Part shown: one piece after another, positions 6,964 to 54,417 of the stretch
How positions within the stretch are numbered: the stretch's first letter is position 1
How the letters are laid out: each line of letters begins with the position of its first letter
Assembly (NCBI GenBank): GCA_019634625.1
Contig: JAHCBA010000001.1
Span: forward strand, 124,001 to 188,000
DNA length: 64,000 nucleotides
Source: Verrucomicrobiia bacterium
Lineage (GTDB): Bacteria > Verrucomicrobiota > Verrucomicrobiia > Limisphaerales > CAIMTB01
Direction of reading: 5' to 3'
The notes under the pieces: generated by a model
The model's database searches: none
What the model was told of the DNA's origin: nothing
The model's input: only the letters and a program-made list of their open reading frames with translations
Program-made: the position numbers and the translations under genes

Positions 6964-7680
6964 GTGCCGGCCCTCCCCGCCCCGTCCGAACCCAACCCCA
7001 ACCCGCCCGATCCACCACCGGAACCTGTCCCGGTCGCAATCCGCTTCGTCCGCCATCCCCGTGCCCGACGCTACATCCTCCGCGTGGACCGGCAGGGCGT
7101 GCGGGTCACCATCCCGCGCGGCGGGTCGGAAGCTTTCGCCCGGCAGTTCGTCGCCGCCCGCGAATCCTGGATCCGCACCCACCTTGCCCGCCTCGCCGCC
7201 CGCCTGGCCCCCGCGCAACCCTGGGGACCGGGAACTCCCGTCTGGTACCGCGGCGAACGCCACCCGCTCGTGGCCGATCCGACCACGCTTCGCCTCGGTG
7301 ACCTCTTCCTTCCCCTCCCGCCCCCCGATACCGACTGGCGGTCCTGGGTGGAAGCCGCCCTCCGCCACCTCGCCACCATCGAGTTCCCACCCCTGGTCCT
7401 TGCCATGGCCGCCCACCATCAACTCGCCGTCCGTCACGTCAGCGTCCGGGCCCAGCGTACCCGCTGGGGATCCTGTTCCAGGAATGGAACGGTCTCCCTC
7501 AACTGGCGCCTCGTCCAAACCCCCCGCCCCGTCCGGGATTACCTGATCGCCCACGAACTCGCCCACCTGCGCGAGATGAACCATTCGCCCCGGTTCTGGC
7601 GCGTGGTGGACCGCTTCTTCCCCGGTTGGCACGACTCCGAAGCCTGGCTCCGCCGCCACGGCCGCGACCTCCTCCCCTGA
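6964..7680 (+). CDS. YgjP-type (DUF45) zinc metallopeptidase
   Basis: A 238-aa protein of the M48-related YgjP/WLM family. The zinc motif HELAH is at 197-201, with the third ligand likely His207 in NHSPRFW. The preceding RTRWGSCSRNGTVSLNWRL segment (about 166-182) is the family hallmark. The N-terminal beta-rich part (VAIRFVRHPRARRYILRV) is also typical. The start is a GTG at 6964 followed by a Pro-rich leader of about 20 residues; a later start near residue 24 would also leave the full domain. It is probably cytoplasmic, with unknown substrate. A perfect 25-bp inverted repeat follows the stop directly and separates it from the convergent panC. Confidence 0.87.
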   Translation: MPALPAPSEPNPNPPDPPPEPVPVAIRFVRHPRARRYILRVDRQGVRVTIPRGGSEAFARQFVAARESWIRTHLARLAARLAPAQPWGPGTPVWYRGERHPLVADPTTLRLGDLFLPLPPPDTDWRSWVEAALRHLATIEFPPLVLAMAAHHQLAVRHVSVRAQRTRWGSCSRNGTVSLNWRLVQTPRPVRDYLIAHELAHLREMNHSPRFWRVVDRFFPGWHDSEAWLRRHGRDLLP

Positions 7681-41835: not shown

Positions 41836-42237
41836 ATGACCACTCACACCACTGTCAACCAGGAACTTCATAGGGAACTGGACGCCATCGTCGAGGAGTT
41901 CGGCCTCGACATCCCCTCCGAGGAGTCCAACGACGCCCTTGCCAGTCTCAACGCTGAACTCAAGGGCACCGAGTTCGCCGCCAGCCCCAACGAATCCCTG
42001 GGTGCGCTCGGCCTGGGGGATGATCCTTCCTTCGAACCCCTCATCTTCAATGTCATCAAAAACCGGGCGAAGAAGCTCATCGAAAAGCTCATCGCGCTCG
42101 CAAAGAAGTACAAGAACTGCCCCAAGTGCATCGCCTACGTGACCGCCGCGGTCGCCGCGTTCAAGACGGGCAACTTCCTCTCGGCACTCGCCGCGGGTGC
42201 CAAGGCCGTGAGCTGCTTCCGAGGCTGCGCAAAGTGA
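41836..42237 (+). CDS. small two-part peptide, candidate secreted or processed peptide precursor
   Basis: A 133-aa protein that I do not recognise. Residues 1-68 are acidic and hydrophilic (HRELDAIVEEFGLDIPSEES). From about 69 it becomes cationic and hydrophobic (NVIKNRAKKLIEKLIALAKK, AYVTAAVAAFKTGNFLSALA) with four cysteines at 95, 98, 127 and 131 (CPKC and CFRGC). This leader-plus-core shape is that of bacteriocin-like or other processed peptides, although there is no double-Gly cleavage site and no signal peptide. AGGA lies 8-9 nt before the ATG. A strong terminator follows 8 bp after the stop, then a 65-aa ORF and a subtilase gene. Such an arrangement allows high expression of the peptide over its processing gene. 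A processed peptide is inference. Confidence 0.82.
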   Translation: MTTHTTVNQELHRELDAIVEEFGLDIPSEESNDALASLNAELKGTEFAASPNESLGALGLGDDPSFEPLIFNVIKNRAKKLIEKLIALAKKYKNCPKCIAYVTAAVAAFKTGNFLSALAAGAKAVSCFRGCAK

Positions 42238-42245
42238 TGTCCCCT

Positions 42246-42300
42246 GGAGACCCGCCGATCCCTTCGGCGGGTCTCCTCCCTCTTTCTCTCTATCTTCATC
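42246..42300 (+). terminator. strong intrinsic terminator directly after the peptide gene
   Basis: GGAGACCCGCCGA (42246-42258) pairs perfectly over 13 bp with TCGGCGGGTCTCC (42264-42276) around a 5-nt loop, followed by the pyrimidine/T-rich TCCCTCTTTCTCTCTATCTT. It would end most transcripts after the peptide gene and let only a fraction read through into the subtilase. Confidence 0.88.
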
Positions 42301-42310
42301 AAGATCTGTC

Positions 42311-42508
42311 ATGTCACCCGCCCCAACTGTCTCCCCAAACGCATCCATCGAGGACCAGATCCGTTACCTCGATGATTTCCTCCGCGAAATCGGCGCCGAC
42401 TCCGGTCAGGCTCCCAACCTCCTGCCCCCCCCAAGCCCCGCGCTCCTTCGCGCCCGCGCCTCCCTCATCGAGGTCCGCCAGACCATCGCCGCCGAAACCG
42501 ACCTCTGA
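42311..42508 (+). CDS. small acidic hypothetical protein
   Basis: A 65-aa predicted protein, acidic, with two amphipathic segments (IEDQIRYLDDFLREIGADS and LRARASLIEVRQTIAAETDL) around a Pro-rich middle. No known domain. It lies between the terminator and the subtilase gene (30 bp to that ATG) in the same direction, which is the main support for calling it a gene. The ribosome site is weak (AAGA). It may be a small partner or inhibitor of the protease, which is inference from position only. Confidence 0.6.
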   Translation: MSPAPTVSPNASIEDQIRYLDDFLREIGADSGQAPNLLPPPSPALLRARASLIEVRQTIAAETDL

Positions 42509-42538
42509 TTCGTCCCCAACCCCAACCCCTTCCTTCCC

Positions 42539-44203
42539 ATGCCCAAAATCCCCAGCCGCCCCGAACGTTATATCATCCGCATCCCCCAGATCCGCGCCCT
42601 GTCAGGCCCGACCCCGGATCTCAATGCCGTCGCCCGGGAGATCGAGGACCTGATGACCTCCTCAGCCCCCCTCGCCGCAACCGGATCACCCGCGGCAACA
42701 CCCCCGGTCATCGAGCGCCTCGAACGGACAGGCGAGGGCCTCCACGCCCTGTCGGCGCTCCTCGATGACGATGCCTACAACGCCCTCCAGGCCCGGCATC
42801 GCAACAGCCTCCTTATCGAACGCGACGATGAACTGCTCCCCCAGGACCAGTTCGCCACCCTTCACGACACCCGAACCCTGCCCCCCGAGAATCATTTCCA
42901 GACCGTCAAGGGCACCGACTTCCGGTTCAAGGTCACGGACGCAGCCCACCAGCCGGTGGCCCGGGTCCTGGTCGAACTCGTCGGCTCCCGCCGCAGCGCA
43001 CGGGACGTGTCGGATGCCCGTGGCCAGGTGACCCTGACCCTCTTCTCCGAAACCCCGGAAACCCTCCGCCGCCTGATTGTCAAACCGCCCGACCGCTTCT
43101 GGGGAATCGATGTCGAACGTCCCGCCCTCACCCCCGCACCCGTCGGCGACAACCCCATCGTCCTCGATCCCCTGGAGGACCTCGACCGTCAGGTCTCCAC
43201 CTGGGGCCTCCAAATCATGGGCCTCGACCACGCTCCAGCCCAACCCGCCACTCACCCGGTCCGCGTGGCCATCATCGATTCCGGGCTATCGGCCCAGCAT
43301 CCGGATCTCGAGGCGGCAGGCGGACATGATTTCAATGCCGGCGCCGATCCCGCAAAAACCTGGAAGCAGGACGACAGCGGACACGGAACCCATGTCTCCG
43401 GTGTGTGCGGTGCCTTGAACAACCAGATCGGCATCGTAGGGGCCGCCGCTCCAGGAGTGCAGATCTTCGGACTCAAAGTCTTCCCCGACGCCCGGGTCTC
43501 CAAACTGGTGCGCGCCCTCGACTGGTGTATCGACAACCGCGTGGACATCGTCAACCTCTCCCTCGGAACCACGGCTTTCAATCAGACCTTCCAAGAAGCC
43601 GTCGCCCGGGCGCGCTCCGCCGGACTGGTGCTGGTCGCCGCTGCCGGCAACTCCTCCGGCGACGTCCTCTATCCCGCCCGCTTCAACGAGGTCGTCGCCG
43701 TCGCCGCCCTCGGAAAAGCCGACGCCTTCCCGGCAACCTCCCCGCACCGGCACTACATCGGACCACACCAGTCCGGAAATCTCTTCGTCGCCGACTTCAC
43801 CTGCACCGGCGATGAGATCGACTTCATCGCCCCGGGCGTCGCCGTCGTCTCAACCGTCCCCGGAGGAAGCTATGCCGCCTGGGATGGCACCTCCATGGCC
43901 TGCCCCTTCATCACCGGCTTCCTTGCCCGCCTCCTCCAAACGGACCCGCACCTCGCCAGCCTGCCCCGCGACGCCTCAAGAGTCTCCCGGCTCGTCGATC
44001 GGGCCAAATCCCTCGCCCGCTATCTCGACTTTCCCCCCACCACCCAGGGCGCCGGTCTCCCAGTCTGGCCGGCCAATGCCTCCCCGGAACCCCACCCCGA
44101 TTCCGAAACCAAACGCGAGATCCTCCGGCACCTCGACCGCGTCCTCTTCCTGCTCGATCAACGCCTCGGCGAGTCGCCCGACCCCGCCCGCCTTTCCACC
44201 TGA
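42539..44203 (+). CDS. subtilisin-like (S8) serine peptidase with N-terminal extension
   Basis: A 554-aa protease. The catalytic set is intact: Asp247 (VAIIDSGLS), His282 (GHGTHVSG), oxyanion Asn371 (AAAGNSS) and Ser452 (DGTSMACPF). The N-terminal 240 residues are not an ordinary propeptide. They hold an unrecognised helical part (1-115) and a beta-rich carboxypeptidase-regulatory-like segment (FRFKVTDAAHQPVARVLVEL, about 128-147). There is no signal peptide or TM, so it should act in the cytoplasm. A helical tail follows the catalytic domain. The start is ATG at 42539. It is in the same direction as the peptide gene and the 65-aa ORF and is the natural candidate to process the peptide. A terminator follows at 44218. 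Confidence 0.92.
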   Translation: MPKIPSRPERYIIRIPQIRALSGPTPDLNAVAREIEDLMTSSAPLAATGSPAATPPVIERLERTGEGLHALSALLDDDAYNALQARHRNSLLIERDDELLPQDQFATLHDTRTLPPENHFQTVKGTDFRFKVTDAAHQPVARVLVELVGSRRSARDVSDARGQVTLTLFSETPETLRRLIVKPPDRFWGIDVERPALTPAPVGDNPIVLDPLEDLDRQVSTWGLQIMGLDHAPAQPATHPVRVAIIDSGLSAQHPDLEAAGGHDFNAGADPAKTWKQDDSGHGTHVSGVCGALNNQIGIVGAAAPGVQIFGLKVFPDARVSKLVRALDWCIDNRVDIVNLSLGTTAFNQTFQEAVARARSAGLVLVAAAGNSSGDVLYPARFNEVVAVAALGKADAFPATSPHRHYIGPHQSGNLFVADFTCTGDEIDFIAPGVAVVSTVPGGSYAAWDGTSMACPFITGFLARLLQTDPHLASLPRDASRVSRLVDRAKSLARYLDFPPTTQGAGLPVWPANASPEPHPDSETKREILRHLDRVLFLLDQRLGESPDPARLST

Positions 44204-44217
44204 ACCCCACCCGATCC

Positions 44218-44266
44218 CCGACCGCATCCCGCCGCGCCAGGGAGGCAGGATGCGGTCGGTTCGTTT
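44218..44266 (+). terminator. rho-independent terminator after the subtilase gene
   Basis: CCGACCGCATCC (44218-44229) pairs perfectly over 12 bp with GGATGCGGTCGG (44248-44259), loop 18 nt, followed by TTCGTTT. It lies between the convergent subtilase and GT2 genes and could serve both directions. Confidence 0.8.
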
Positions 44267-44333
44267 CCCCCCCGAATCGCCCCCCCCATTGGCCGCCTGT
44301 TTCCACTCCCGGCTTCGCCCGTCCCTCCCGACG

Positions 44334-45083
44334 TCACCCGGTCACAACCCCGGGCTCTCCACCTGGCATCGGTCCCCCAGGCGACCCGAACAGCCCCGGC
44401 GGCGCCCGCCGCGGCTCGGTATCCACCCGCACGCCCGATCGAAACCGCCCCAACCCTCCGCCGTTCTGCCGGATCGCCTCCCCAAGGAAGTAGTCGTCTC
44501 CAAAATGAACCAGCCGACGGTCCGGCCAGTCCAGCAGCCGGATCCACGCGCTGCGAATCGCCCAGAACCCGCCCAGCACGAAATCAATCCGCCCCACACA
44601 TCCCGGCCGGTCCGGCGGCAGCAGCGGCATGCCCCGGTACCAGGGCGCCTCCTCAATCCAGCGCCGCCCCGCCTCGTCCACTCCAACCGACGCCGGGATC
44701 CCCAGAATCACCGCACCGGGCTGCGCCGCCACGGCAATCTCCAAGGACGCAAGCCAGTCCGCCCGGAACGGAAACGAGTCGTCATCGAACCAGATCGTCC
44801 ACTCGGTCTCGATTCCAGGCTCGCGAAAGAGCCGCCGCATCGTCGCCGCCTTCCCGGGATTCCCATCCATCCCCAGCCGCCGAATCATGCGGCCCTCCGA
44901 CATCGCCCTCGCCACAATCCCCTCCGTCCGAACCCCGCACGCATTCATCCCCACCCGCAGCGGAATCCCCTGCCCGCATCGCCTCCACTGCCGGAAAAAC
45001 CGCTCCGCAATCCGCGGATGTTCCCCATACACCAGCACACAGGCCGTCGCCGATAGCCTCCCGTTCACCTTAGCCGTATCCAT
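44334..45083 (-). CDS. GT2-like glycosyltransferase
   Basis: A 249-aa protein. CVLVYGEHPRIAERFFRQW at the start and the metal-binding acidic motif TIWFDDDSFPFRADWL (about 95-110), followed by GGFWAIRSAWIRLLDWPD and HFGDDYFLGEAIRQNGG, fit a GT-A fold glycosyltransferase. There is no TM. Donor and acceptor are unknown; with a small Cys-bearing peptide gene converging on it, peptide glycosylation is one possibility. It is the last gene of the minus-strand operon that starts with the ECF sigma factor, but it is separated from the trypsin-like gene by 196 bp containing a palindromic repeat, so it may have its own promoter. Confidence 0.8.
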   Translation of the reverse strand: MDTAKVNGRLSATACVLVYGEHPRIAERFFRQWRRCGQGIPLRVGMNACGVRTEGIVARAMSEGRMIRRLGMDGNPGKAATMRRLFREPGIETEWTIWFDDDSFPFRADWLASLEIAVAAQPGAVILGIPASVGVDEAGRRWIEEAPWYRGMPLLPPDRPGCVGRIDFVLGGFWAIRSAWIRLLDWPDRRLVHFGDDYFLGEAIRQNGGGLGRFRSGVRVDTEPRRAPPGLFGSPGGPMPGGEPGVVTG

Positions 45084-45115
45084 GCAGTAAGGAGGAAAGC
45101 GATGGCGCCGCAGAG

Positions 45116-45197
45116 TTTCGGGCAGGACGAGGAGTGAGCGAGGTGCGTCTCGGAACCGGGATACCTAACGAGCGAACGACGAAGCTCTTGCCCGAAA
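45116..45197. repeat. 82-bp REP-like imperfect palindrome
   Basis: The left end TTTCGGGCAGGACGAGGAGT and the complement of the right end (TTTCGGGCAAGAGCTTCGTC) match at the tips. Arms GAGTGAGCGAGGTGCGTCTC and the complement of ATACCTAACGAGCGAACGAC match partly, around the centre GGAACCGGGATACC. It has the look of REP/RAYT-type elements and interrupts the operon between the trypsin-like and GT2 genes. Confidence 0.75.
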
Positions 45198-45279
45198 AGT
45201 CCAAGCCAGCGCCCCCGACCTTGTTGCATGGTTACGGCTTGGTTCCCTCCCACTCCGGCCCCCGCATCCCACCCGCCCC

Positions 45280-46140
45280 TCAGGGAGCGTATCGCTGTCG
45301 GATGGCATCCAACCAATCGATGAGGCCCTTGTTCAACCGGAGCGCCACCAGATGCGGATTGGCCGACACCGGCTCGTTGATCGACCGCCGCACATACATG
45401 GCCACGAGCTTGTTCTCCTCGGCTTTGCCCATGAACACCGGCGAGCCGCTGTCCCCAAACGCGATGCACCTGCCCTGCTCCTGCTTGCTGACATCGCACT
45501 CGCATGCCTTGAAGACATACTCCCGCTCCGCATCGTGCCCGTGGATCGCCGGCTCCTGATCCTTCGAGCTGTAAGTCACCTCCCGCCATTTGCGCCGATG
45601 GCCATTCTTACCCTGGCTTTCGCCGGAACTGTCACTGAATCCCGCGATCCTCAGATCCCGGAATTCGTCGTGGGCTTCGAGTGTCGCACAATTCCTCAGA
45701 TCAAACGCCCGCTGCGCCAGTTGCCCCCGTACGGAACCCTTCTCATTCCCCCACTGCCCCTCGTCGAACTGGAGCATCAGCAACCGCACATCGAAGCCAT
45801 GCCCCCTGCCAGCCTTCGGATGATCGATGATCCGTCGAACCCGGAAAATCCGCTCCGAATCAGACACGCCCTTCAATCCCGGAAGATGAACGCGGTCCCC
45901 CATCACCAGTTCCGACCGCGGCCCATGCGCAACGGTCAGGACCGCGCATTCATGAATCAAAATCCCGGTGGACCACCACTCGTAAGCCCTATCGCCGCCA
46001 CCGGCGGCCCCTGCGTCGCTCCCGGCAGAGGCTTCTTTGGAGTTGGAACCGGGCGCCTTGGCCGCACCGATCCTGCAACAGTAGCGTGGGAAATACGCCC
46101 CATCTTCGCCGCATTCATTGGCAAGAATTGAGTTGTACAT
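45280..46140 (-). CDS. trypsin-like (S1) serine protease
   Basis: A 286-aa protease. The catalytic triad is His72 (AVLTVAHG), Asp117 (FDVRLLMLQF) and Ser231 (AFGDSGSPVF); the fold-typical ILIHECAVLTVAHG strand is clear. Six or seven Cys are spread through it (CCRIG, HECAV, NCATL, ACECD, GRCIA), so disulphides and an exported location are possible, though no classical signal peptide is seen at the ATG. The frame starts at 46140 without a good ribosome site, and the true N-terminus could be elsewhere. DNA here is lower in C-skew than the operon around it, so this gene may be a later arrival. It lies 25 bp after the Tat-exported protein gene. Confidence 0.85.
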   Translation of the reverse strand: MYNSILANECGEDGAYFPRYCCRIGAAKAPGSNSKEASAGSDAGAAGGGDRAYEWWSTGILIHECAVLTVAHGPRSELVMGDRVHLPGLKGVSDSERIFRVRRIIDHPKAGRGHGFDVRLLMLQFDEGQWGNEKGSVRGQLAQRAFDLRNCATLEAHDEFRDLRIAGFSDSSGESQGKNGHRRKWREVTYSSKDQEPAIHGHDAEREYVFKACECDVSKQEQGRCIAFGDSGSPVFMGKAEENKLVAMYVRRSINEPVSANPHLVALRLNKGLIDWLDAIRQRYAP

Positions 46141-46165
46141 GGATTGAATCAGGTGGGATCAACAG

Positions 46166-47449
46166 TCACTTCCAAAGTGTCACCCCCAGCACGAAGGGCG
46201 AGGCGCAGGACCCGGGGTCCGCCCGCAGGGTGAAGCCCTCCATCTCACGGCCCCTTCCCGACGCGCCGATCCGGATCTCGGTGGCGTACAAAACGCCCGG
46301 ACCGTCCCCCACACGTCCGGTCCAGACCACCCGGGCTTCCCCGGACACCGGCGAATCCCTCCAGCAGCCGGTGTCGCGCCCGTACATCAGCGGCCTCCGA
46401 ATGGGTGCGGCCTCCCCGCGCACGCGCAGAACGCATTCCCCCGCAATCTCTCCAGGCCGCCCCCGACAGGCGGTGGCATGAAGCACAACCATCCGGCCCG
46501 CCGTCCGTCCCCCCAGCGACAGTTCCCGGCTCTCCAGGGGATAAGCCTGACCCAGAAAACCCTCCCCCTTCTCGAACTCCTGCCAGGTCGCCACCGTCCC
46601 GCCCGTGGTCTGGATCATCCTTCGGGCATCGAACGGATCCGGAGTCAGTCCCGCACCGCACCGGGTCTCCCGCAGAAACCCATCCAGGGTCAGTCCGTCC
46701 GGCAGCCCGTCCATCCAGGGCAAATCCGGATTCGCATTGGCCGCTCCTTCGAGATCCACACAGCCCGCCGGCAACCCCTCGGGCCTCGGCAGATCCGTTT
46801 GCCCAGGCGCCCCGGAATGCCGGGACAGCAGCCACGGCATCGTGTAGGGCTCCGGGCGTATGTCCGGAAAGGTGTACTCCCAGTACCGGCCGCTCAGATA
46901 GCCGCGTCCATCCACCCCGAGATTCAACACCGTATCCCCGTGCCGCCGGCATCGCAGCATCGGCACCCGGCCGCCCATCGCCGTCCGGGTCAGGGCCACC
47001 TTCCACTCCCGCATCTCCATGTCCGGCAGTTCCCCGAGAATCGCCCGATCCACCCGATCCGCGCTGAACTCATAGTTGTAATTCGATTCCGGGTTGTAGG
47101 TGCTCGACGAATGGAGATCCCCCTCGGGAGCGAACAGATAGGTCCCGCTTCGCTCCGCCAGGGGACAAACCCACGCCCTCGGATAGGCCAGCAATCGCTC
47201 GACCCGCAACGCCCCCAGGTCGGCCGGCCATTCCTCCGCCCCGTGCGCCCGCTGCCAGCGCCGCACCGCGTCACGCAATATTCCCATCCGTCGAAAACAC
47301 TCCCGCATGTCCGCCTCCCCGCTCTCGCCAGTCGCCCGCCATGCCCCCGCCAGCGCCAACCCCATCCATCCCGCCCGCCGGAGAAATGCCCGGCGCCCCA
47401 GACGTCCCTGGCGCCAGTCCGGAGATGCAAAGGGGACGGAGTATCTCAT
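46166..47449 (-). CDS. Tat-exported protein of unknown function
   Basis: A 427-aa protein. The twin-arginine signal LGRRAFLRRAGWMGLALAGA (about 17-36) marks export of a folded protein. The mature part begins with a helix (MRECFRRMGILRDAVRRWQR) and PADLGALRVERLLAYPRAWV then CPL, like the pseudopilin-type modules of Planctomycetota/Verrucomicrobiota envelope proteins, followed by beta-rich sequence without a known family. Three or four Cys occur in the mature part. The start is ATG at 47449; the frame extends upstream without recognisable sequence. It is in the minus-strand operon between the 188-aa hypothetical and the trypsin-like protease. Confidence 0.8.
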   Translation of the reverse strand: MRYSVPFASPDWRQGRLGRRAFLRRAGWMGLALAGAWRATGESGEADMRECFRRMGILRDAVRRWQRAHGAEEWPADLGALRVERLLAYPRAWVCPLAERSGTYLFAPEGDLHSSSTYNPESNYNYEFSADRVDRAILGELPDMEMREWKVALTRTAMGGRVPMLRCRRHGDTVLNLGVDGRGYLSGRYWEYTFPDIRPEPYTMPWLLSRHSGAPGQTDLPRPEGLPAGCVDLEGAANANPDLPWMDGLPDGLTLDGFLRETRCGAGLTPDPFDARRMIQTTGGTVATWQEFEKGEGFLGQAYPLESRELSLGGRTAGRMVVLHATACRGRPGEIAGECVLRVRGEAAPIRRPLMYGRDTGCWRDSPVSGEARVVWTGRVGDGPGVLYATEIRIGASGRGREMEGFTLRADPGSCASPFVLGVTLWK

Positions 47450-47511
47450 GGTTGGGATCGTCGCTGAGGAAACCCGGCGTGGACCAGGCATCCCCCAAGC
47501 CGCGGCACCCT

Positions 47512-48078
47512 TCATCCGCTTCCCGGCGGATTCGTCGAATTGCGGGACTCCGACTGCCCCGGCGTCTCGAGGCTGAACGCGCGGCTCCGCACCAACACCT
47601 CGGTGATGTACCCGTCCACCGTGATGGCAGGCTGAATCCACGTGTACGGATCCCTCATCTCAGCCCCCCACTTGATCCTCAGATCCGCGTAATTCCGGAC
47701 CGCCATGTCGTACAGTCTCCTCGCTTCGCTCGCGTCCAGTCCGTTGGCCCTTCCCACTCGGTAGTGGTAGAGACCCGTGTTGAGCCGGTCCATCGCGTTC
47801 ACAATGTCCCAGACAAAATCCGGAAACTCACTGCCCGCCATCTCATGCTCGCCGGACTCCGGAAACCGAACCGGTCCGCCCGACACACTCAGCGGCGGCG
47901 GATGGGGCCTCGTCAGCGGGTATTCCTCAGTGGGCATCGCATCCGGATTCCACTGATTCGTGCCGGCCGACGCCTCCCGAGGGGTTTCGGCGTGCGACCG
48001 CTGCTCAACCTGCTCCGCCCCCTTCGCCTGGTCTGGACCGCTGCCCGCTGGGGATTTCGTCTTCGCAACTTTACTCAT
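47512..48078 (-). CDS. hypothetical protein in the kinase operon
   Basis: A 188-aa protein that I do not recognise. The first 70 residues are polar, Pro/Thr/Glu-rich and probably disordered. The second half is helical (FVWDIVNAMDRLNTGLYHYR, SEARRLYDMAVRNYADLRIK). No Cys, no TM, no signal peptide. The ATG at 48078 overlaps the end of the GT9 gene by 8 bp, so translation is coupled with that glycosyltransferase. Confidence 0.78.
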   Translation of the reverse strand: MSKVAKTKSPAGSGPDQAKGAEQVEQRSHAETPREASAGTNQWNPDAMPTEEYPLTRPHPPPLSVSGGPVRFPESGEHEMAGSEFPDFVWDIVNAMDRLNTGLYHYRVGRANGLDASEARRLYDMAVRNYADLRIKWGAEMRDPYTWIQPAITVDGYITEVLVRSRAFSLETPGQSESRNSTNPPGSG

Positions 48079-49048
48079 GATAGATGGTAATGGGTTGAAC
48101 CTGTCGCGCAGGAAGGTGGGCTCGCACGGATTGAATGACCATCGGCGCCTCAATGCTCGCCATGCAACGGGGCAATCCCACCCCGGCATCGAAATCCAGA
48201 CACAGCCTCTCCGGATCGTCGTTGCAGTCTCCGTCCCCAAGGGGCACCGACCGCCTCTTCCAGCACCCTCCCGAGGCGCAGCAGGGCAGGGTGCCGACGG
48301 TGTGCAGATAGCGGTGCCAGGGATACGCCTCCCAGTGCGCCGGCTCCCTCGCGCCGGCCACCACCACACAGGGCCGCTCACCCCGCCGGTCCGGAGGCTG
48401 CGGCACCGCCGCCGCCAGGTGCATCAACGACGTCACCGGACACACCACCCCGCGACTGTGATACACCAGCCGAACCAGCTCTCTCAGCGTCGTCCGCCCA
48501 CGCATGTCCACCACGCCCTCCAGCCGTGGATGATAATGATGCGCCTCCCCCACCTGGACGAACACCACCTCGTCCCGCAGCCGATTCACCACCTCCTGCC
48601 ACCGCCGGCGGTGCCACCACTTGATCGTGAAGTCATACTTCCCCCCCGCCGCGATGATCCAGTACGGACGCCTGTCCCCATGCACCTCCTCGACGGGACC
48701 AGGGTCCGTCATCTCACTCTTGGAAAGATGGATGTCACCCCGGAACGCGGTCGGATGCAGCGAGACTCCCAGCTCCCCGCCAAGATGCTGCACGAAACCG
48801 TGCAGGAAATGCCAGGGCTCGCTGTTGGCCCTGTCAATGAGCGGATACCGGCACTCAATGTGGCGCACCTCCGGGTCGTCGCTCCGCAACGGCGTCAACC
48901 AGGGATTGTATCGCCACAGATCCGGACACGATGTGCGGACATCCGTCACAAACCGCCCCGGATGGCATCGATGCAAATCCCGCACCGCAGCCGTGAGCAT
49001 GACGATGTCCCCGGGCGACAGAGAACACTTCAGGATCAGCTTCGTCAT
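48071..49048 (-). CDS. GT9 (heptosyltransferase-like) glycosyltransferase with Cys-rich tail
   Basis: A 325-aa GT-B glycosyltransferase. The start LILKCSLSPGDIVMLTAAVR is the GT9 acceptor loop; PYWIIAAGGKYDFTIKWWHR and VVCPVTSLMHLAAAVPQ form the donor domain. The last 90 residues carry six Cys (PCCASGGCWKRRSVPLGDGD, then C-NDDPERLC and LPRCM), a feature I associate with a GT9 subgroup in Planctomycetota and Verrucomicrobiota and not with LPS heptosyltransferases. It may bind metal. The start is ATG at 49048, overlapping the upstream stop by 4 bp. A role in lipopolysaccharide is possible, but the operon (sigma factor, kinase, proteases) suggests a different acceptor. Confidence 0.85.
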   Translation of the reverse strand: MTKLILKCSLSPGDIVMLTAAVRDLHRCHPGRFVTDVRTSCPDLWRYNPWLTPLRSDDPEVRHIECRYPLIDRANSEPWHFLHGFVQHLGGELGVSLHPTAFRGDIHLSKSEMTDPGPVEEVHGDRRPYWIIAAGGKYDFTIKWWHRRRWQEVVNRLRDEVVFVQVGEAHHYHPRLEGVVDMRGRTTLRELVRLVYHSRGVVCPVTSLMHLAAAVPQPPDRRGERPCVVVAGAREPAHWEAYPWHRYLHTVGTLPCCASGGCWKRRSVPLGDGDCNDDPERLCLDFDAGVGLPRCMASIEAPMVIQSVRAHLPARQVQPITIYHE

Positions 49049-49614
49049 CCCCCGCCTCCCCCCGGTCGCGGCCCCGATCCCGCGCCCGTAGTCGCGCAGC
49101 CCATCCGATTCAGATCCGCCAGGATCTCCTCCCTCGGTATGCCCGGAATCGACGCCACCTTCGCCAGCAGCCCCGCATCCGGCAGCGCCACCTTGACGCA
49201 CGCCTCCTGCTCGCTGTGCCGCCGGTGGTTCTCGACAACCCGCTTCCGGGCATACCGGAACACGAGATCCACCGCCTGGTTGCCGCGCATCACCGGCTCC
49301 GCATCGAACCCCACCGGGGCACAGCGGTCCTCGAGCCGGTCCCGAAACTCAATCGCCCGGTGCAGGGCCGCCACCAGGACCGCCTCGGCCCCGGGACCCG
49401 CAGCCCCCGCGCGACACTCCTCCAACGCCCGATGCAGCCGGTTGAGGCGGTAGTAGGCCGCCAGAAACTCGATCTGCTGCCGCCCGTCAGCATCGCTCGT
49501 GTCCGCCGCAGGCCAGGCGCCGCCGTCGCACGCCGGCATCGCCCCTGGATCCGCCGGCCCGCCGCCCCCCCGCGGATCCGTCACGAATTCCTCGAATGTG
49601 TCCGCCATGAGCAT
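49045..49614 (-). CDS. hypothetical protein between kinase and GT9
   Basis: A 189-aa protein of unknown family. A polar N-terminal third is followed by helices (EFLAAYYRLNRLHRALEECR, AAGPGAEAVLVAALHRAIEF, VDLVFRYARKRVVENHRRHS) and a short, conserved-looking IPGIPREEILADLNRMGC. It ends in a Gly-rich tail. ATGs at 49614 and 49608 are both possible; the first is given. Its stop overlaps the GT9 start, and it begins 19 bp after the kinase stop. Confidence 0.75.
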   Translation of the reverse strand: MLMADTFEEFVTDPRGGGGPADPGAMPACDGGAWPAADTSDADGRQQIEFLAAYYRLNRLHRALEECRAGAAGPGAEAVLVAALHRAIEFRDRLEDRCAPVGFDAEPVMRGNQAVDLVFRYARKRVVENHRRHSEQEACVKVALPDAGLLAKVASIPGIPREEILADLNRMGCATTGAGSGPRPGGGGG

Positions 49615-49633
49615 CGATTCCGTCGCCCTGCCT

Positions 49634-52600
49634 TTAATGCGTCGTTTCCGTGTCCAGAGGGACACCCGACTTCATCCCCGCATATTCCACGCCCGCCCAC
49701 GACGGCAGGCAGTTCTCCTCCCCCAGCAGTCTCAGGATCATCCCGACATCCCAAACCCGCAGTTGCCCGTCTTCGCCAATCGCCCCCAGCCAGCGATCCC
49801 CTCCTGCAAACCGCAGCCGCTCAAACCTCGAAAACGCCCCCGCCCCCAATAACACCACCGGCCTTAGTCGAGGTGACTCCTCCACCCTGAAGTGTCCCAG
49901 GACTATTCCTCCCGAACTCAGCGCGCCGGCCGCCACCACCCCCGTCCGCTGGACCGCCAGTTCCATCAGCGAATCCTCCCCCCATTCCCCATCCACCCGC
50001 ACGGCCGGGTTCGCCCCGATAACATCCACCACCAGCACCTCCCCTCCACCGCTCACCACACACCAACGGTTCCCGACAAACGCCACACGGCGCCCGCTTC
50101 CGGGGAGTGCCGCCGCAACCCGGTCCCCCCACCCCGCACCCCAGACCCGCAGCCCCTCATCCACCCAGGCAATCCTCCCCCCATCCCCCGACATCGCCAG
50201 ATCCTCCACCCCGCCCCCTCCCGGACGTTCCATCTCCACGACCTCCCCACCCCCAAGCTCAGCCCATTGGATCCGGCCCCTGCGCACCATCGCAGCCCGG
50301 CTCTTTCCCACGTTCAACACAATGCGGGCCGGTGCCTCCTCTGGATCCACCTCCCTGAATGCGCGGCTCAATGGCAGAGCGCCCCGGTTCAGGGTTCCTC
50401 CATCCCAGACCAGACCGAGATCCCCGAACCGCGAGGACGCCACCAGGCTTGTCGGCGTCAGGAACCGTACCCCGCGACTCATGGCAGCCGTTCCCGATGC
50501 CGCATGCTCGCGCCGGTTCCCATCAAACACCGTCACACCCCCCGAACCCGCACAGGCCACCAGGATTCCGTCAGGTGCCACGTCAAAATCCTCGATCCGG
50601 CCCAGCCGCTGGCTGGCGAAGGCGCGGGTGACCGGACTCGGAACGCGGCGGAGCGCCCCGACGCCGCCATCCTCCCGATGAATCACGAGGTCGTCTCCCC
50701 GCCGCCCCAGGGCCACAGGACGGGAACCGCGGGTGACGGCGACCGACGGGCGCCCGGTCAGCACATCGAAACAGTACACACCGCCGGCCTCATCCGCCGC
50801 CACGAGATAGCCGTCGCGGGGAAAGCGTGCGAGAAGCTCCCACTGCCTCGGATGCCCCGCCTCGCTGTCACCCTTCGCCGGATACCGGGCCAGCGGTCGA
50901 TCCACCCGGACCGCACGTTGTCCCCCCTCCTCGATGCCCCAGGCGTACAGGTACGCATCCGCAGCGGCAGCAATCATCCGGTTCGATGCGGTCCATATCG
51001 CCTTCCGCACCGGTGCCGGGTGATACGCGCATACCGCGATCCGGCCGACACTCAACTCCCACACCAGCAGTTCCAGCGAATGGAGGCTCCACTGGGCCAG
51101 AAGCCGGTCGTCCGGACTGAACGCCAGGCCTGTGGGCGGACGGGATCGCACACCGGAATCGTCGCCCGCCAGAATTCCGCTCACAGCCCAATCCGGGGCC
51201 GCCCGCAGTTCAACCCCGCCTTCGTTCCAGCCGTCCGCAAGACCCACCGCGAGTATATCCCCCCGCGTGTTCCACCCCAACGAAAGTGGCGGACCCCCGA
51301 GGGCGATCCGGGCCTCCTCGGTCCCGTCGCTCCCATTCAGGAGAATGACCTGCCGCCGCCACCCGACCGCCGCACGCGCCGCCATCGGCGCCAGCGCCAG
51401 CACCGCGGGCTGCTCCAATTCCACCTCGCTCCGCCACAGCCGCCTCCCGTCCAGCCCGTCGATCAAGTCCACCCCGCCCCCCGCCACCTGTCGCAGCAGG
51501 AATCTCGAACTCCCCTCAAGCACCGCCTGCAGCCCCCGCCCGTCCAACGCCAAACCCTTCCCCTCCTCAATCGACCAGTCCTCCAACTCAAGAACCCGCA
51601 CATAGGCATCCGCCATCCGTCGCCGCTCGTCGTCCGACCGGGCCTCCACCCGCGCAAGGACGCTCCGAACCGATTCAATACGGTTCGGCGCCTCACTCGT
51701 CGCCAATCGTGCCAGTTCGTTGAGCTGGCTCGACTGGGCGTTGATCCGGGCTTCGCTCTCCGCCGCCGACGCAGCCCGCGCCCGATCCACGGCGTACCAC
51801 CCGAACCACGCCAGCAGGGCCACCACCCCGCTCGCCAGCACCGCCGTCAGCGCAACCCCCCGCCGGTAGGCCGCCCGCTCGCGCGCCGCAATCTCCGCCC
51901 GGCGCCGTTGCTCCCCCGCCTGCCTGGCTTCCAGCGCCCGCAGGCTCGCCGCCAGCTCGCCCGCACTGGCCCACCGCCGGCCCGGCGTTCCCGCCAGACA
52001 CCGGTTCAAATCCTCCCGAAGCAGCGGATCCTCGATCCGCATGGGCCAGTCCGCCGGGTCCAGAGCGGCCTTGAGATTGCCCACCAGCAACTGCCACAAC
52101 ACCACCCCCAGACTGTAGATGTCCGACCGCGCCGTCGCCGCCCCCCCTTCCAACACCTCGGGCGCCAGATAAAGCATGGTCCCCGACAACTCCGACCTCG
52201 ATATCCCCGACAAGGTGCGCGTGAACCCGGGCCGCCCCTCCGCCGACGCGATCTCATCCAAAACCACCTGCCCGATCCCGAAATCCGCAATCAGTACATG
52301 AACCTCCGCTCCCCCCGAACCCCCAGCCCCCTGATCCCGCACCAGCAGGTTCCCCGGCTTGATGTCCCGGTGCAGGATCCCCGCGTCGTGCGCCGCCTCC
52401 AAGGCCTCCGCCGCCTGCGCCACAATCTCGATCCGCGTCCGCAATGGCACTCCTCCCAACCCGTCCGGTCGCTCCGCACACCACGTCTCCAAATCCCGCG
52501 CATCCTCCCCCTCCATCATCAAATACCATGGCGGCTCATCCAGGGAAACCTCGTGAAGCTGCACGAAATGCGGGTGACGCCCGATCCGCTCCTTCAGCAG

Positions 52601-53842
52601 CCGGTACAGCGTATACTCCCGCCTCAACGTTCGCACCTTCGCCTCGCTGGCGCAGAACTTGAACACCCGACGCTGACCCAGCCGCTCATGCTGCCCCAGC
52701 CACACCTCCCCGGTGCCACCATCCCCCAGCGGTTCGATCAAACGCCATTCGGTCCCGGGTACCATGGCACCCGCGGCAGGCACCCATGCCGGCACAGGCC
52801 TCGCCGGTAGCCCGTAGCTCCCCGACACCCGGGCCATCGCCCGACCCAACGAGGCCACCGAGTAAAATCGATCCGCCGGATCCCGCCGAACCGCCCGCGC
52901 CACCAGCAAATCCAGCTCTTCAGGACAATCCGGCAACACATCCTTCAACCGTGGCATCGGCGCGGTCAGGACCGCCTGCCGAACCGCCGCCAGTCGGGTC
53001 CCCGGCGGAAACTCGAACAGCCGCCGCCCCGACAGAATCTCGAACAGCACCGCACCCAACGCATACACGTCCACGCTCTGCGACCGCCGGAAATCCGTGT
53101 CCAGCCCAAGATGCTGCTCCGGCGCCGCATAGTGGGGCGTTCCCGAGAAATGAGCCGGATCCCCCGCGCTGGTCATCCCCAAAAACCGCGCAATCCCAAA
53201 GTCCAGAATCACCGGCCGCTCATCCGAACCCACCAGGATGTTCGCCGGCTTCAGGTCCCGATGAACAATGTGACGGTCGTGGGCCGCCTGGACCGCCTCA
53301 CACACCGCCACCATCACCTCCAGTTTCCGCTTCCGATCGTCGCCAACAGCCCCCGCCCAGCGGTCAAGCGCCTGCCCATCCACCAGTTCCATCGCAAAAT
53401 ACGGCAGCGGCCCGCGAACCGGATCCTCATGATATCCCGCATCGAACACCCGCACGATCCCAGGATGTCTCAACCGCCCCAGAAGCCGGACCTCATCGAG
53501 CGAACGCTCCAGGGATTGGGCCGAAACCACCGCCGGATGCAGGATCTTCAGCGCCACATCCCGCTCGATCGTCCGCTGCGTCGCCCGCCACACCGCACCC
53601 ATCCCCCCGTTGCCGATCTTCTCCACCAGCGTGTAGCCCCCACCCACCACCGCGCCAGGCCCAAGCCCGTTCTGGATCGGAGGCAGACCGTGCCATACCC
53701 CCACCAGCGTCAATACCGACGGCGGTTCCCCCGCAGCAGCCAGTTCCTCAAGCCGCACCAACGCCTCTTCCGCCGACAACGCCCCCAACTGCTCCGCCAA
53801 CTCCTCCACCCGCCGCCAGTGCCCTTCCGTCGGAATCCTCAT
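49634..53842 (-). CDS. tandem Ser/Thr protein kinase with TM segment and WD40-like C-terminus
   Basis: A 1402-aa protein with two complete-looking kinase domains. Kinase 1, about 68-335: glycine loop KIGNGGMGAVWRA, Lys99 (VALKIL), HRD 194-196 with Lys198 and Asn201, DFG 214-216. Kinase 2, about 366-635: PLGDGGTGEVWLG, Lys395 (VFKFC), HRD 491-493 with Lys495 and Asn498, DFG 520-522. After that come a coiled, charged stretch, one TM helix (AVLASGVVALLAWFGWYAV, about 667-685) and roughly 700 residues of WD40-like beta repeats (LAFSPDDRLLAQWS, LAMSGDGGRIAWVDE, GEDGQLRVWD). Kinase-TM-WD40 proteins behind ECF sigma factors are common in this superphylum; two kinases in one chain are not. The ATG overlaps the sigma factor stop (ATGA). 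Confidence 0.93.
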   Translation of the reverse strand: MRIPTEGHWRRVEELAEQLGALSAEEALVRLEELAAAGEPPSVLTLVGVWHGLPPIQNGLGPGAVVGGGYTLVEKIGNGGMGAVWRATQRTIERDVALKILHPAVVSAQSLERSLDEVRLLGRLRHPGIVRVFDAGYHEDPVRGPLPYFAMELVDGQALDRWAGAVGDDRKRKLEVMVAVCEAVQAAHDRHIVHRDLKPANILVGSDERPVILDFGIARFLGMTSAGDPAHFSGTPHYAAPEQHLGLDTDFRRSQSVDVYALGAVLFEILSGRRLFEFPPGTRLAAVRQAVLTAPMPRLKDVLPDCPEELDLLVARAVRRDPADRFYSVASLGRAMARVSGSYGLPARPVPAWVPAAGAMVPGTEWRLIEPLGDGGTGEVWLGQHERLGQRRVFKFCASEAKVRTLRREYTLYRLLKERIGRHPHFVQLHEVSLDEPPWYLMMEGEDARDLETWCAERPDGLGGVPLRTRIEIVAQAAEALEAAHDAGILHRDIKPGNLLVRDQGAGGSGGAEVHVLIADFGIGQVVLDEIASAEGRPGFTRTLSGISRSELSGTMLYLAPEVLEGGAATARSDIYSLGVVLWQLLVGNLKAALDPADWPMRIEDPLLREDLNRCLAGTPGRRWASAGELAASLRALEARQAGEQRRRAEIAARERAAYRRGVALTAVLASGVVALLAWFGWYAVDRARAASAAESEARINAQSSQLNELARLATSEAPNRIESVRSVLARVEARSDDERRRMADAYVRVLELEDWSIEEGKGLALDGRGLQAVLEGSSRFLLRQVAGGGVDLIDGLDGRRLWRSEVELEQPAVLALAPMAARAAVGWRRQVILLNGSDGTEEARIALGGPPLSLGWNTRGDILAVGLADGWNEGGVELRAAPDWAVSGILAGDDSGVRSRPPTGLAFSPDDRLLAQWSLHSLELLVWELSVGRIAVCAYHPAPVRKAIWTASNRMIAAAADAYLYAWGIEEGGQRAVRVDRPLARYPAKGDSEAGHPRQWELLARFPRDGYLVAADEAGGVYCFDVLTGRPSVAVTRGSRPVALGRRGDDLVIHREDGGVGALRRVPSPVTRAFASQRLGRIEDFDVAPDGILVACAGSGGVTVFDGNRREHAASGTAAMSRGVRFLTPTSLVASSRFGDLGLVWDGGTLNRGALPLSRAFREVDPEEAPARIVLNVGKSRAAMVRRGRIQWAELGGGEVVEMERPGGGGVEDLAMSGDGGRIAWVDEGLRVWGAGWGDRVAAALPGSGRRVAFVGNRWCVVSGGGEVLVVDVIGANPAVRVDGEWGEDSLMELAVQRTGVVAAGALSSGGIVLGHFRVEESPRLRPVVLLGAGAFSRFERLRFAGGDRWLGAIGEDGQLRVWDVGMILRLLGEENCLPSWAGVEYAGMKSGVPLDTETTH

Positions 53843-54417
53843 GCCTCACCCATCCTCGAGGCCGCCTCCAGCATTTTCCGCAGCAACACCCTCGCCTTCT
53901 TCAAATCGCGGTCCACCGTCTTCTCGCTCACCTCCTGAAACTGCGCCATCTCCGCAACCGTGTACCCGAAGTAGTAGTGCTGACGCAGGATCCCCGCGAG
54001 CCGCGCATCCTGCTCGCCCAGGCGGGTCAGCGCCTCCTCCAGCATCAGGACCCGCTCCGGCTTCTCCTCCGCCGCGGCCGGCAGATCCCGAAACACATCC
54101 TCGTCCGGTGGCAGGTATAGCACCTTGCTCCGACCCTTCGCCCGCCGCCGCCGCGCATGGTCCACCAGCGCATTGCGCATGGCGACCGACATCGCCGCCA
54201 TGAAATGCCCGCGGTTCTCCCACCGCACATCCTCCCACGCCTCCTCCTTCAACTTCGCCCGCCGCAACGCCGTCATCGCCAGCGCCGTCGGCGTGTAGGT
54301 GTGGTTGCGGGATTCAAATGCCAGCAGTCGCGCCGCGACCATCCGCAATTCCCCGATCAAGTCCCGCAGATCGTCCACCGTGACGCATTCGCCCGCCGCC
54401 TGCCCGGATGGCTCCAT
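53839..54417 (-). CDS. ECF sigma factor (Sigma70_ECF type) heading the kinase operon
   Basis: A 192-aa sigma factor of the Planctomycetota/Verrucomicrobiota Sigma70_ECF type. Region 2 is about 15-90 (DLRDLIGELRMVAARLLAFE, GHFMAAMSVAMRNALVDHAR), with the linker KGRSKVLYLPPDEDVF typical of this group. Region 4 is about 125-185 (ALTRLGEQDARLAGILRQHY, YTVAEMAQFQEVSEKTVDRD). The start is ATG at 54417 with GAGAA upstream; the frame runs further upstream without family sequence. The overlap with the kinase gene (ATGA) suggests the kinase controls the sigma factor, as proposed for such pairs. Confidence 0.92.
   Translation of the reverse strand: MEPSGQAAGECVTVDDLRDLIGELRMVAARLLAFESRNHTYTPTALAMTALRRAKLKEEAWEDVRWENRGHFMAAMSVAMRNALVDHARRRRAKGRSKVLYLPPDEDVFRDLPAAAEEKPERVLMLEEALTRLGEQDARLAGILRQHYYFGYTVAEMAQFQEVSEKTVDRDLKKARVLLRKMLEAASRMGEA

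Follow-up and report, generated by a model that had tools for sequence, protein, structure and literature searches.

A conserved ECF sigma factor/kinase operon of Verrucomicrobiota as a candidate protein glycosylation cassette

Does a small plus-strand peptide gene that lies beside a sigma factor/kinase operon belong to that operon, and what might the operon make? We addressed this question in a window of 64,000 nucleotides (positions 124001 to 188000 of contig 1) from a draft genome of 6.74 Mb in 88 contigs. Judged both by its genome and by the GT9 glycosyltransferase of the operon, its relatives lie among Verrucomicrobiota of the Pedosphaera/Limisphaerales group. An initial annotation had joined the genes of both strands into one system, and all the genes that it named are present where it placed them.

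The minus-strand operon and its conservation

The minus-strand row starts with a TIGR02999-like ECF sigma factor of 192 aa that has a TPTAL motif (53839 to 54417). It is followed by a tandem Ser/Thr kinase of 1402 aa, with a transmembrane segment and a weak beta-propeller at the C terminus (49634 to 53842). The next gene, p189 (49045 to 49614), encodes a conserved protein without an assigned family and lies directly upstream of a 325-aa GT9 glycosyltransferase with a cysteine finger (48071 to 49048). Then come p188, our proposed acceptor (47512 to 48078); an exported protein with a twin-arginine-like signal (46166 to 47449); a trypsin-like protease (45280 to 46140); and a GT2-like glycosyltransferase with a DDD motif (44334 to 45083). 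Family searches gave no match for p189, p188 and the exported protein, nor for the two small plus-strand products described below.

We re-measured the tight spacing reported for this row. The sigma and kinase genes share an ATGA at 53839 to 53842, the gap from kinase to p189 is 19 bp, and p189 runs 4 bp into GT9, all as described. However, the reported 8-bp overlap of GT9 and p188 exists only if p188 starts at 48078. The p188 proteins of relatives align only from about residue 72, which makes a start near 47841, giving about 110 aa, just as likely and leaves the overlap insecure. Elsewhere in the window, ARAGORN called a tRNA-Gly at 7078 to 7167, inside an open reading frame (6964 to 7680) and without Rfam confirmation; it is probably false.

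Comparison with other genomes indicates that the block from 44334 to 54417 is a real operon, beyond chance, because it recurs gene for gene in a sister species. A genome of the same genus (G003, locus L037) has all eight genes in the same order (sigma, kinase, p189, GT9, p188, exported protein, trypsin, and GT2) between different flanking genes. The identities to the window proteins are 69, 46, 55, and 67% for sigma, kinase, p189, and GT9 and 50, 49, 36, and 52% for p188, exported protein, trypsin, and GT2. In a second sister genome (G004), the operon is divided between two contigs. Other Verrucomicrobiota keep a core of sigma, kinase, p189, GT9, p188, exported protein and usually GT2, without the plus-strand genes; this core was found in G007 (two copies), G042, G043, G451, G537, G602, and a Chthoniobacteraceae locus, L122. 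The three genomes of more distant families (G007, G042, and G043) have a regulator, p189, GT9, a p188-like gene, the exported protein, and GT2, and lack trypsin and S8 genes. Loci L106 and L112 run from sigma through kinase, p189, GT9, and p188-like gene to exported protein, and L122 adds GT2. Genes in the comparison loci were called with a caller trained per locus, and the GT9 frame was forced in some loci.

The gene order kept in relatives bears out the earlier view of the minus-strand genes as a single unit that includes the sigma/kinase pair. GT9, p189, and p188 are the constant parts of the cassette, and the trypsin gene is an operon member only within the source genus. Of 245 genomes of the order, 13 carry p189, mostly adjoining GT9. 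The initial annotation knew of no described system of such composition; we found none in the literature searched, and no paper describing the finger-GT9 family in the open-access literature. The minus-strand operon is thus genuine and apparently undescribed. The source genome carries a paralogous module (L048, G000:C13:35001-55000), in which a kinase with an N-terminal cyclase-like domain is accompanied by a 99-aa Pro/Thr-rich membrane peptide, a GT9 (54% identical), and a GT2. A broken GT9 copy with in-frame stops lies at G023:C38:1538-2285. Among cultured relatives, Chthoniobacter flavus and Verrucomicrobium sp. BvORR034 have a finger-GT9 gene.

The plus-strand genes

On the plus strand, a 133-aa peptide gene with four cysteines within the last 40 residues (41836 to 42237) is followed by an intrinsic terminator, a 65-aa open reading frame of modest coding score (42311 to 42508), and an S8 subtilase with a unique N-terminal region (42539 to 44203; PF00082, E 7e-41). 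The terminator proved real, with a 13-bp stem at 42246 to 42276, −29.6 kcal/mol and a z score of −6.3. Therefore, the peptide gene and the 65-aa/S8 genes need not share one transcript.

We found no relative of the 133-aa peptide in 58 genomes of the order, 388 genomes of the phylum, GTDB contigs, or plasmids, and no relative of the S8 N-terminal region in 293 genomes of the order. The convergent layout with peptide, 65-aa, and S8 genes did not recur in the relatives searched. The initial annotation had proposed a search for co-occurrence in relatives and held that genes found apart would be chance neighbors. In that search, the peptide and the S8 N terminus did not travel with the kinase operon, which by this reasoning makes them chance neighbors. 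In a RiPP or bacteriocin system, a precursor conserved with maturation or export genes would be expected; here the peptide and the S8 N terminus have no relatives. The plus-strand peptide and S8 are probably separate units that just lie next to the operon.

The source genome has about 12 S8 genes. An S8 gene within 10 kb of the operon by chance would be unlikely, but with that many copies it is not remarkable. In G003 and G004, another S8 gene stands head-to-head with sigma; its product is 31% identical in the catalytic domain only and has a different N terminus. A loose genus-level link between the operon and S8 proteases is therefore possible.

The finger-GT9 enzyme, its regulators, and Ser-rich neighbors

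The window GT9 scores 36.3 bits against PF01075 (curated cutoff 22; E 5e-9). Its predicted model (pLDDT 85) has a GT-B heptosyltransferase fold, and the closest structures are Veillonella GT9 3tov (Z 23.2), WaaF (20.9), TibC (19.4), and WaaC (19.3). A GT9 profile gave no significant match to PDB sequences (best, WaaF, E 0.93). NCBIfam scans of family members hit mainly LPS heptosyltransferase models, and the window GT9 falls below their cutoffs. D14 is present in 99 of 101 GT9 domains, with gaps in the remaining two, and C256, C262, C283, and C295 are present in 93 to 97 of the 101. These cysteines form a putative metal finger towards the C terminus, C-x5-C-x20-C-x11-C. These alignments and the model place the window GT9 in a distinct four-Cys-finger family whose fold is close to that of TibC, minus the TibC barrel.

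TibC is an autotransporter O-heptosyltransferase that heptosylates TibA; it binds iron via C339, C342, C358, and C370, and changing any of these cysteines abolishes activity (PMC4358343). The window enzyme resembles such bacterial autotransporter heptosyltransferases (BAHTs; TibC and Aah) in its GT9-type GT-B catalytic domain, its four-Cys motif towards the C terminus, and its proposed protein O-glycosylation. However, the TibC finger is spaced C-x2-C-x15-C-x11-C, and the N-terminal beta-barrel of TibC (about 97 residues) is absent, residue 1 of the window GT9 aligning with TibC residue 96 and no sequence lying ahead of the catalytic domain. TibC-type enzymes also assemble as dodecamers with a beta-hairpin thumb; the model here is of a monomer. 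There is also no autotransporter among the window gene neighbors; the partner is a small Ser-tailed protein, and the cassette has sigma/kinase control and a second glycosyltransferase. Without the barrel and an adjacent autotransporter, we do not file the window GT9 as a BAHT, but it may work like one.

Both domains of the kinase keep HRD and DFG motifs. TPTAL (RPTAL in L104) occurs in all seven full-length sigma factors of such modules, PTAL being common to all, and occupies the site of the acidic DxxD in ordinary ECF sigma factors. The sigma gene adjoins a Hanks-type kinase gene in the window and in L037, L106, L107, L112, and L122. No sigma-70-type promoters were found. ECF43 sigma factors adjoining Hanks kinases are activated by phosphorylation and have a QTTA motif; such pairs are EcfP-PknT and EcfK-PknS, and a type VI secretion system is under the control of EcfK (PMC13147305). 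The window pair matches them by adjacency to a membrane kinase gene and by motif, with Thr in region 2.2 at the site of an acidic residue (QTTA in ECF43, TPTA here). It differs in its likely target, a glycosylation operon, and in its tandem kinase domains.

The predicted p189 structure is a helical hairpin plus a beta hairpin, and a fold search gave no informative match (best Z 6.3, on the helical hairpin). A profile comparison was negative for p189 and p188 as paralogues. The exported protein appears, by eye, to have a pseudopilin-like segment and a C-terminal beta-sandwich-like region. The trypsin-like protease (family match E 3e-7) has an apparently intact catalytic triad and no evident signal peptide, and seven of eight aligned GT2 members match Pfam GT2 families.

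The proteins encoded just after GT9 in such operons are poorly conserved apart from Ser-rich C-terminal ends, which are modest in the window's clade and extreme elsewhere (SESSSSSSSSSASS). The window p188 tail, SLETPGQSESRNSTNPPGSG, contains 5 Ser among its final 20 residues, and PGQSES-NSTNPP is common to it and the p188 of the sister species. Other tails at this position are SESSSSSSSSSASSYFPPEY (L122), SSNKSSSSSSAP (L116), YFASSSSSSSSTIPEEGL (L114), and NPHSSSSAIKVP (L069); in L188, a 52-aa Ser-tail peptide lies directly before GT9. Over the final 20 residues, Ser made up a fraction of 0.314 in 11 p188-position proteins versus 0.070 in other proteins of the same loci. The p of 2e-7 is optimistic, because SSSSS was the reason for picking 2 of the 11 and background proteins containing it were left out. 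In the nine selected purely by position, 3 to 12 of those residues are Ser. p188, which lies inside the operon, is a better acceptor candidate than the 133-aa peptide.

Independently, we considered poly-Ser genes, defined by 8 Ser in 12 aa, around finger-GT9 genes of seven phyla. They make up 15 of 409 genes within three genes of GT9 versus 4 of 428 farther away (p 0.007); a within-locus permutation of their positions gave only p 0.029, and only 15 of 80 cellular GT9 loci have one. Among 19 viral GT9 loci in IMG/VR, 14 have a poly-Ser protein versus 0 of 80 control loci, a comparison with some redundancy among the viral loci and with controls drawn from a single terminase query. Two further viral control sets were too small or empty. 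Clustering by GT9 similarity yields 11 groups of viral loci, about 8 of which have a poly-Ser protein. The poly-Ser label changes 20 times on the GT9 tree, so the vicinity is not one inherited neighborhood. No poly-Ser neighbor is seen in a clade of 23 GT9 genes, many of which carry a GT71-like fusion and lie next to kinases. This absence limits the Ser-tract claim.

The viral loci include phage contigs (L189 to L207) on which finger-GT9 genes, several of them with extra fused domains, occur together with poly-Ser proteins. These proteins matched no PHROGs family, and no GT9 was found in named plasmids and phages. In Bacteroidota loci L144 (11067 to 12998) and L146 (7360 to 8547), poly-Ser proteins directly after GT9 have a weak Trypsin_2 match, possibly an echo of the window trypsin gene.

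A proposed cassette and the alternatives

We suggest, with a probability of about 0.5, that the minus-strand operon is a protein glycosylation cassette under ECF sigma/kinase control, with sugar, reaction, and Ser-tail acceptor all inferred. In this scenario, the membrane kinase would sense an envelope cue and phosphorylate the Thr of TPTAL, and the phosphorylated sigma factor would transcribe the operon. GT9 would O-glycosylate Ser in the p188 tail, probably from a nucleotide sugar such as ADP-heptose, perhaps aided by p189, and GT2 would extend the glycan. GT9 fusions to GT34-like, GT71-like, or GT2 domains in other loci are consistent with stepwise extension. The exported pseudopilin-like protein may display, receive, or sense the product. 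Processing may fall to the trypsin-like protease, perhaps along with an S8 protease, as additions at the genus level. The plus-strand peptide would be transcribed separately. The glycosylation function suggested by the initial annotation is thus supported as a reading, with a different acceptor. Points against the cassette include the lack of ADP-heptose genes in the operon, the Ser content of window p188, which is far below the extreme cases, and the clade of 23 GT9 genes without a poly-Ser neighbor.

Most GT9 enzymes with a known function are LPS heptosyltransferases, and WaaF is among the nearest folds. GT9 and GT2 might thus build an envelope polysaccharide or an LPS-core-like lipid-linked glycan, with p188 and p189 as unrelated accessories. 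We consider this rather unlikely, because the operon lacks genes for lipid A, a flippase, a polymerase, or sugar nucleotides and GT9 adjoins small nonenzyme Ser-tail proteins, and poly-Ser proteins in phages. That the tails are instead phosphorylated by the kinase in the same operon, GT9 serving something else, seems far-fetched, since phage and many cellular loci pair poly-Ser with GT9 with no kinase seen nearby.

Two further explanations draw on the proteases. PADLOC kinase and subtilase models match, and proteases lie near the kinase, as they would in an intruder-triggered conflict or defense module. The matches reflect only shared domains, however, and it is GT9, p189, and p188 that are constant, while the trypsin gene is operon-linked only in the source genus and S8 lies outside the operon; this explanation is improbable. 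Similarly improbable is the original proposal that the sigma/kinase pair controls production of the 133-aa peptide, its cleavage by S8, and its glycosylation to a secreted RiPP- or glycocin-like product. The genes are physically close, the peptide resembles a leader plus a cationic four-Cys core, and the unrelated S8 adjoins sigma in the two sister genomes. However, the peptide and the S8 N terminus are absent from all operon-carrying relatives, the strand is opposite, a terminator lies inside the cluster, and no transporter is seen. The operon recurs without them, and the idea that it makes, cleaves, or glycosylates the peptide is not supported.

The glycosylation cassette has a parallel in the serine-rich repeat glycoproteins (Fap1/GspB type), in which dedicated glycosyltransferases modify Ser-rich protein regions, as proposed here. 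Those systems differ in their glycosyltransferase types, accessory Sec system, and large Gram-positive adhesins, whereas the candidate acceptors here are small proteins or phage proteins.

More broadly, we give even odds that finger-GT9 enzymes constitute an undescribed O-glycosyltransferase family acting on Ser tracts in at least seven bacterial phyla and phages, each tagging dedicated Ser-tail or linker proteins, and placed under a kinase-activated ECF sigma factor in Verrucomicrobiota. If true, a compact cytoplasmic enzyme recognizing Ser runs would represent a general protein glycosylation principle outside pathogens, found in both environmental bacteria and phages, where neighboring genes encode candidate acceptors. 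It would also give a function to the conserved p188 and p189 of uncultured Verrucomicrobiota, a testable output to one of their many sigma/kinase pairs, and possibly a glyco-engineering tool with a short acceptor tag.

Other arrangements of these genes were also seen. Loci L079, L083, L084, and similar ones, in which GT9 is fused to GT34/GT71-like domains and adjoins an ECF sigma factor and kinase, form a second regulated type without poly-Ser neighbors. In L104 (10884 to 12815) and L188, RebB genes (R-body, PF11747) adjoin a sigma-kinase-GT9 locus with the 52-aa Ser-tail peptide.
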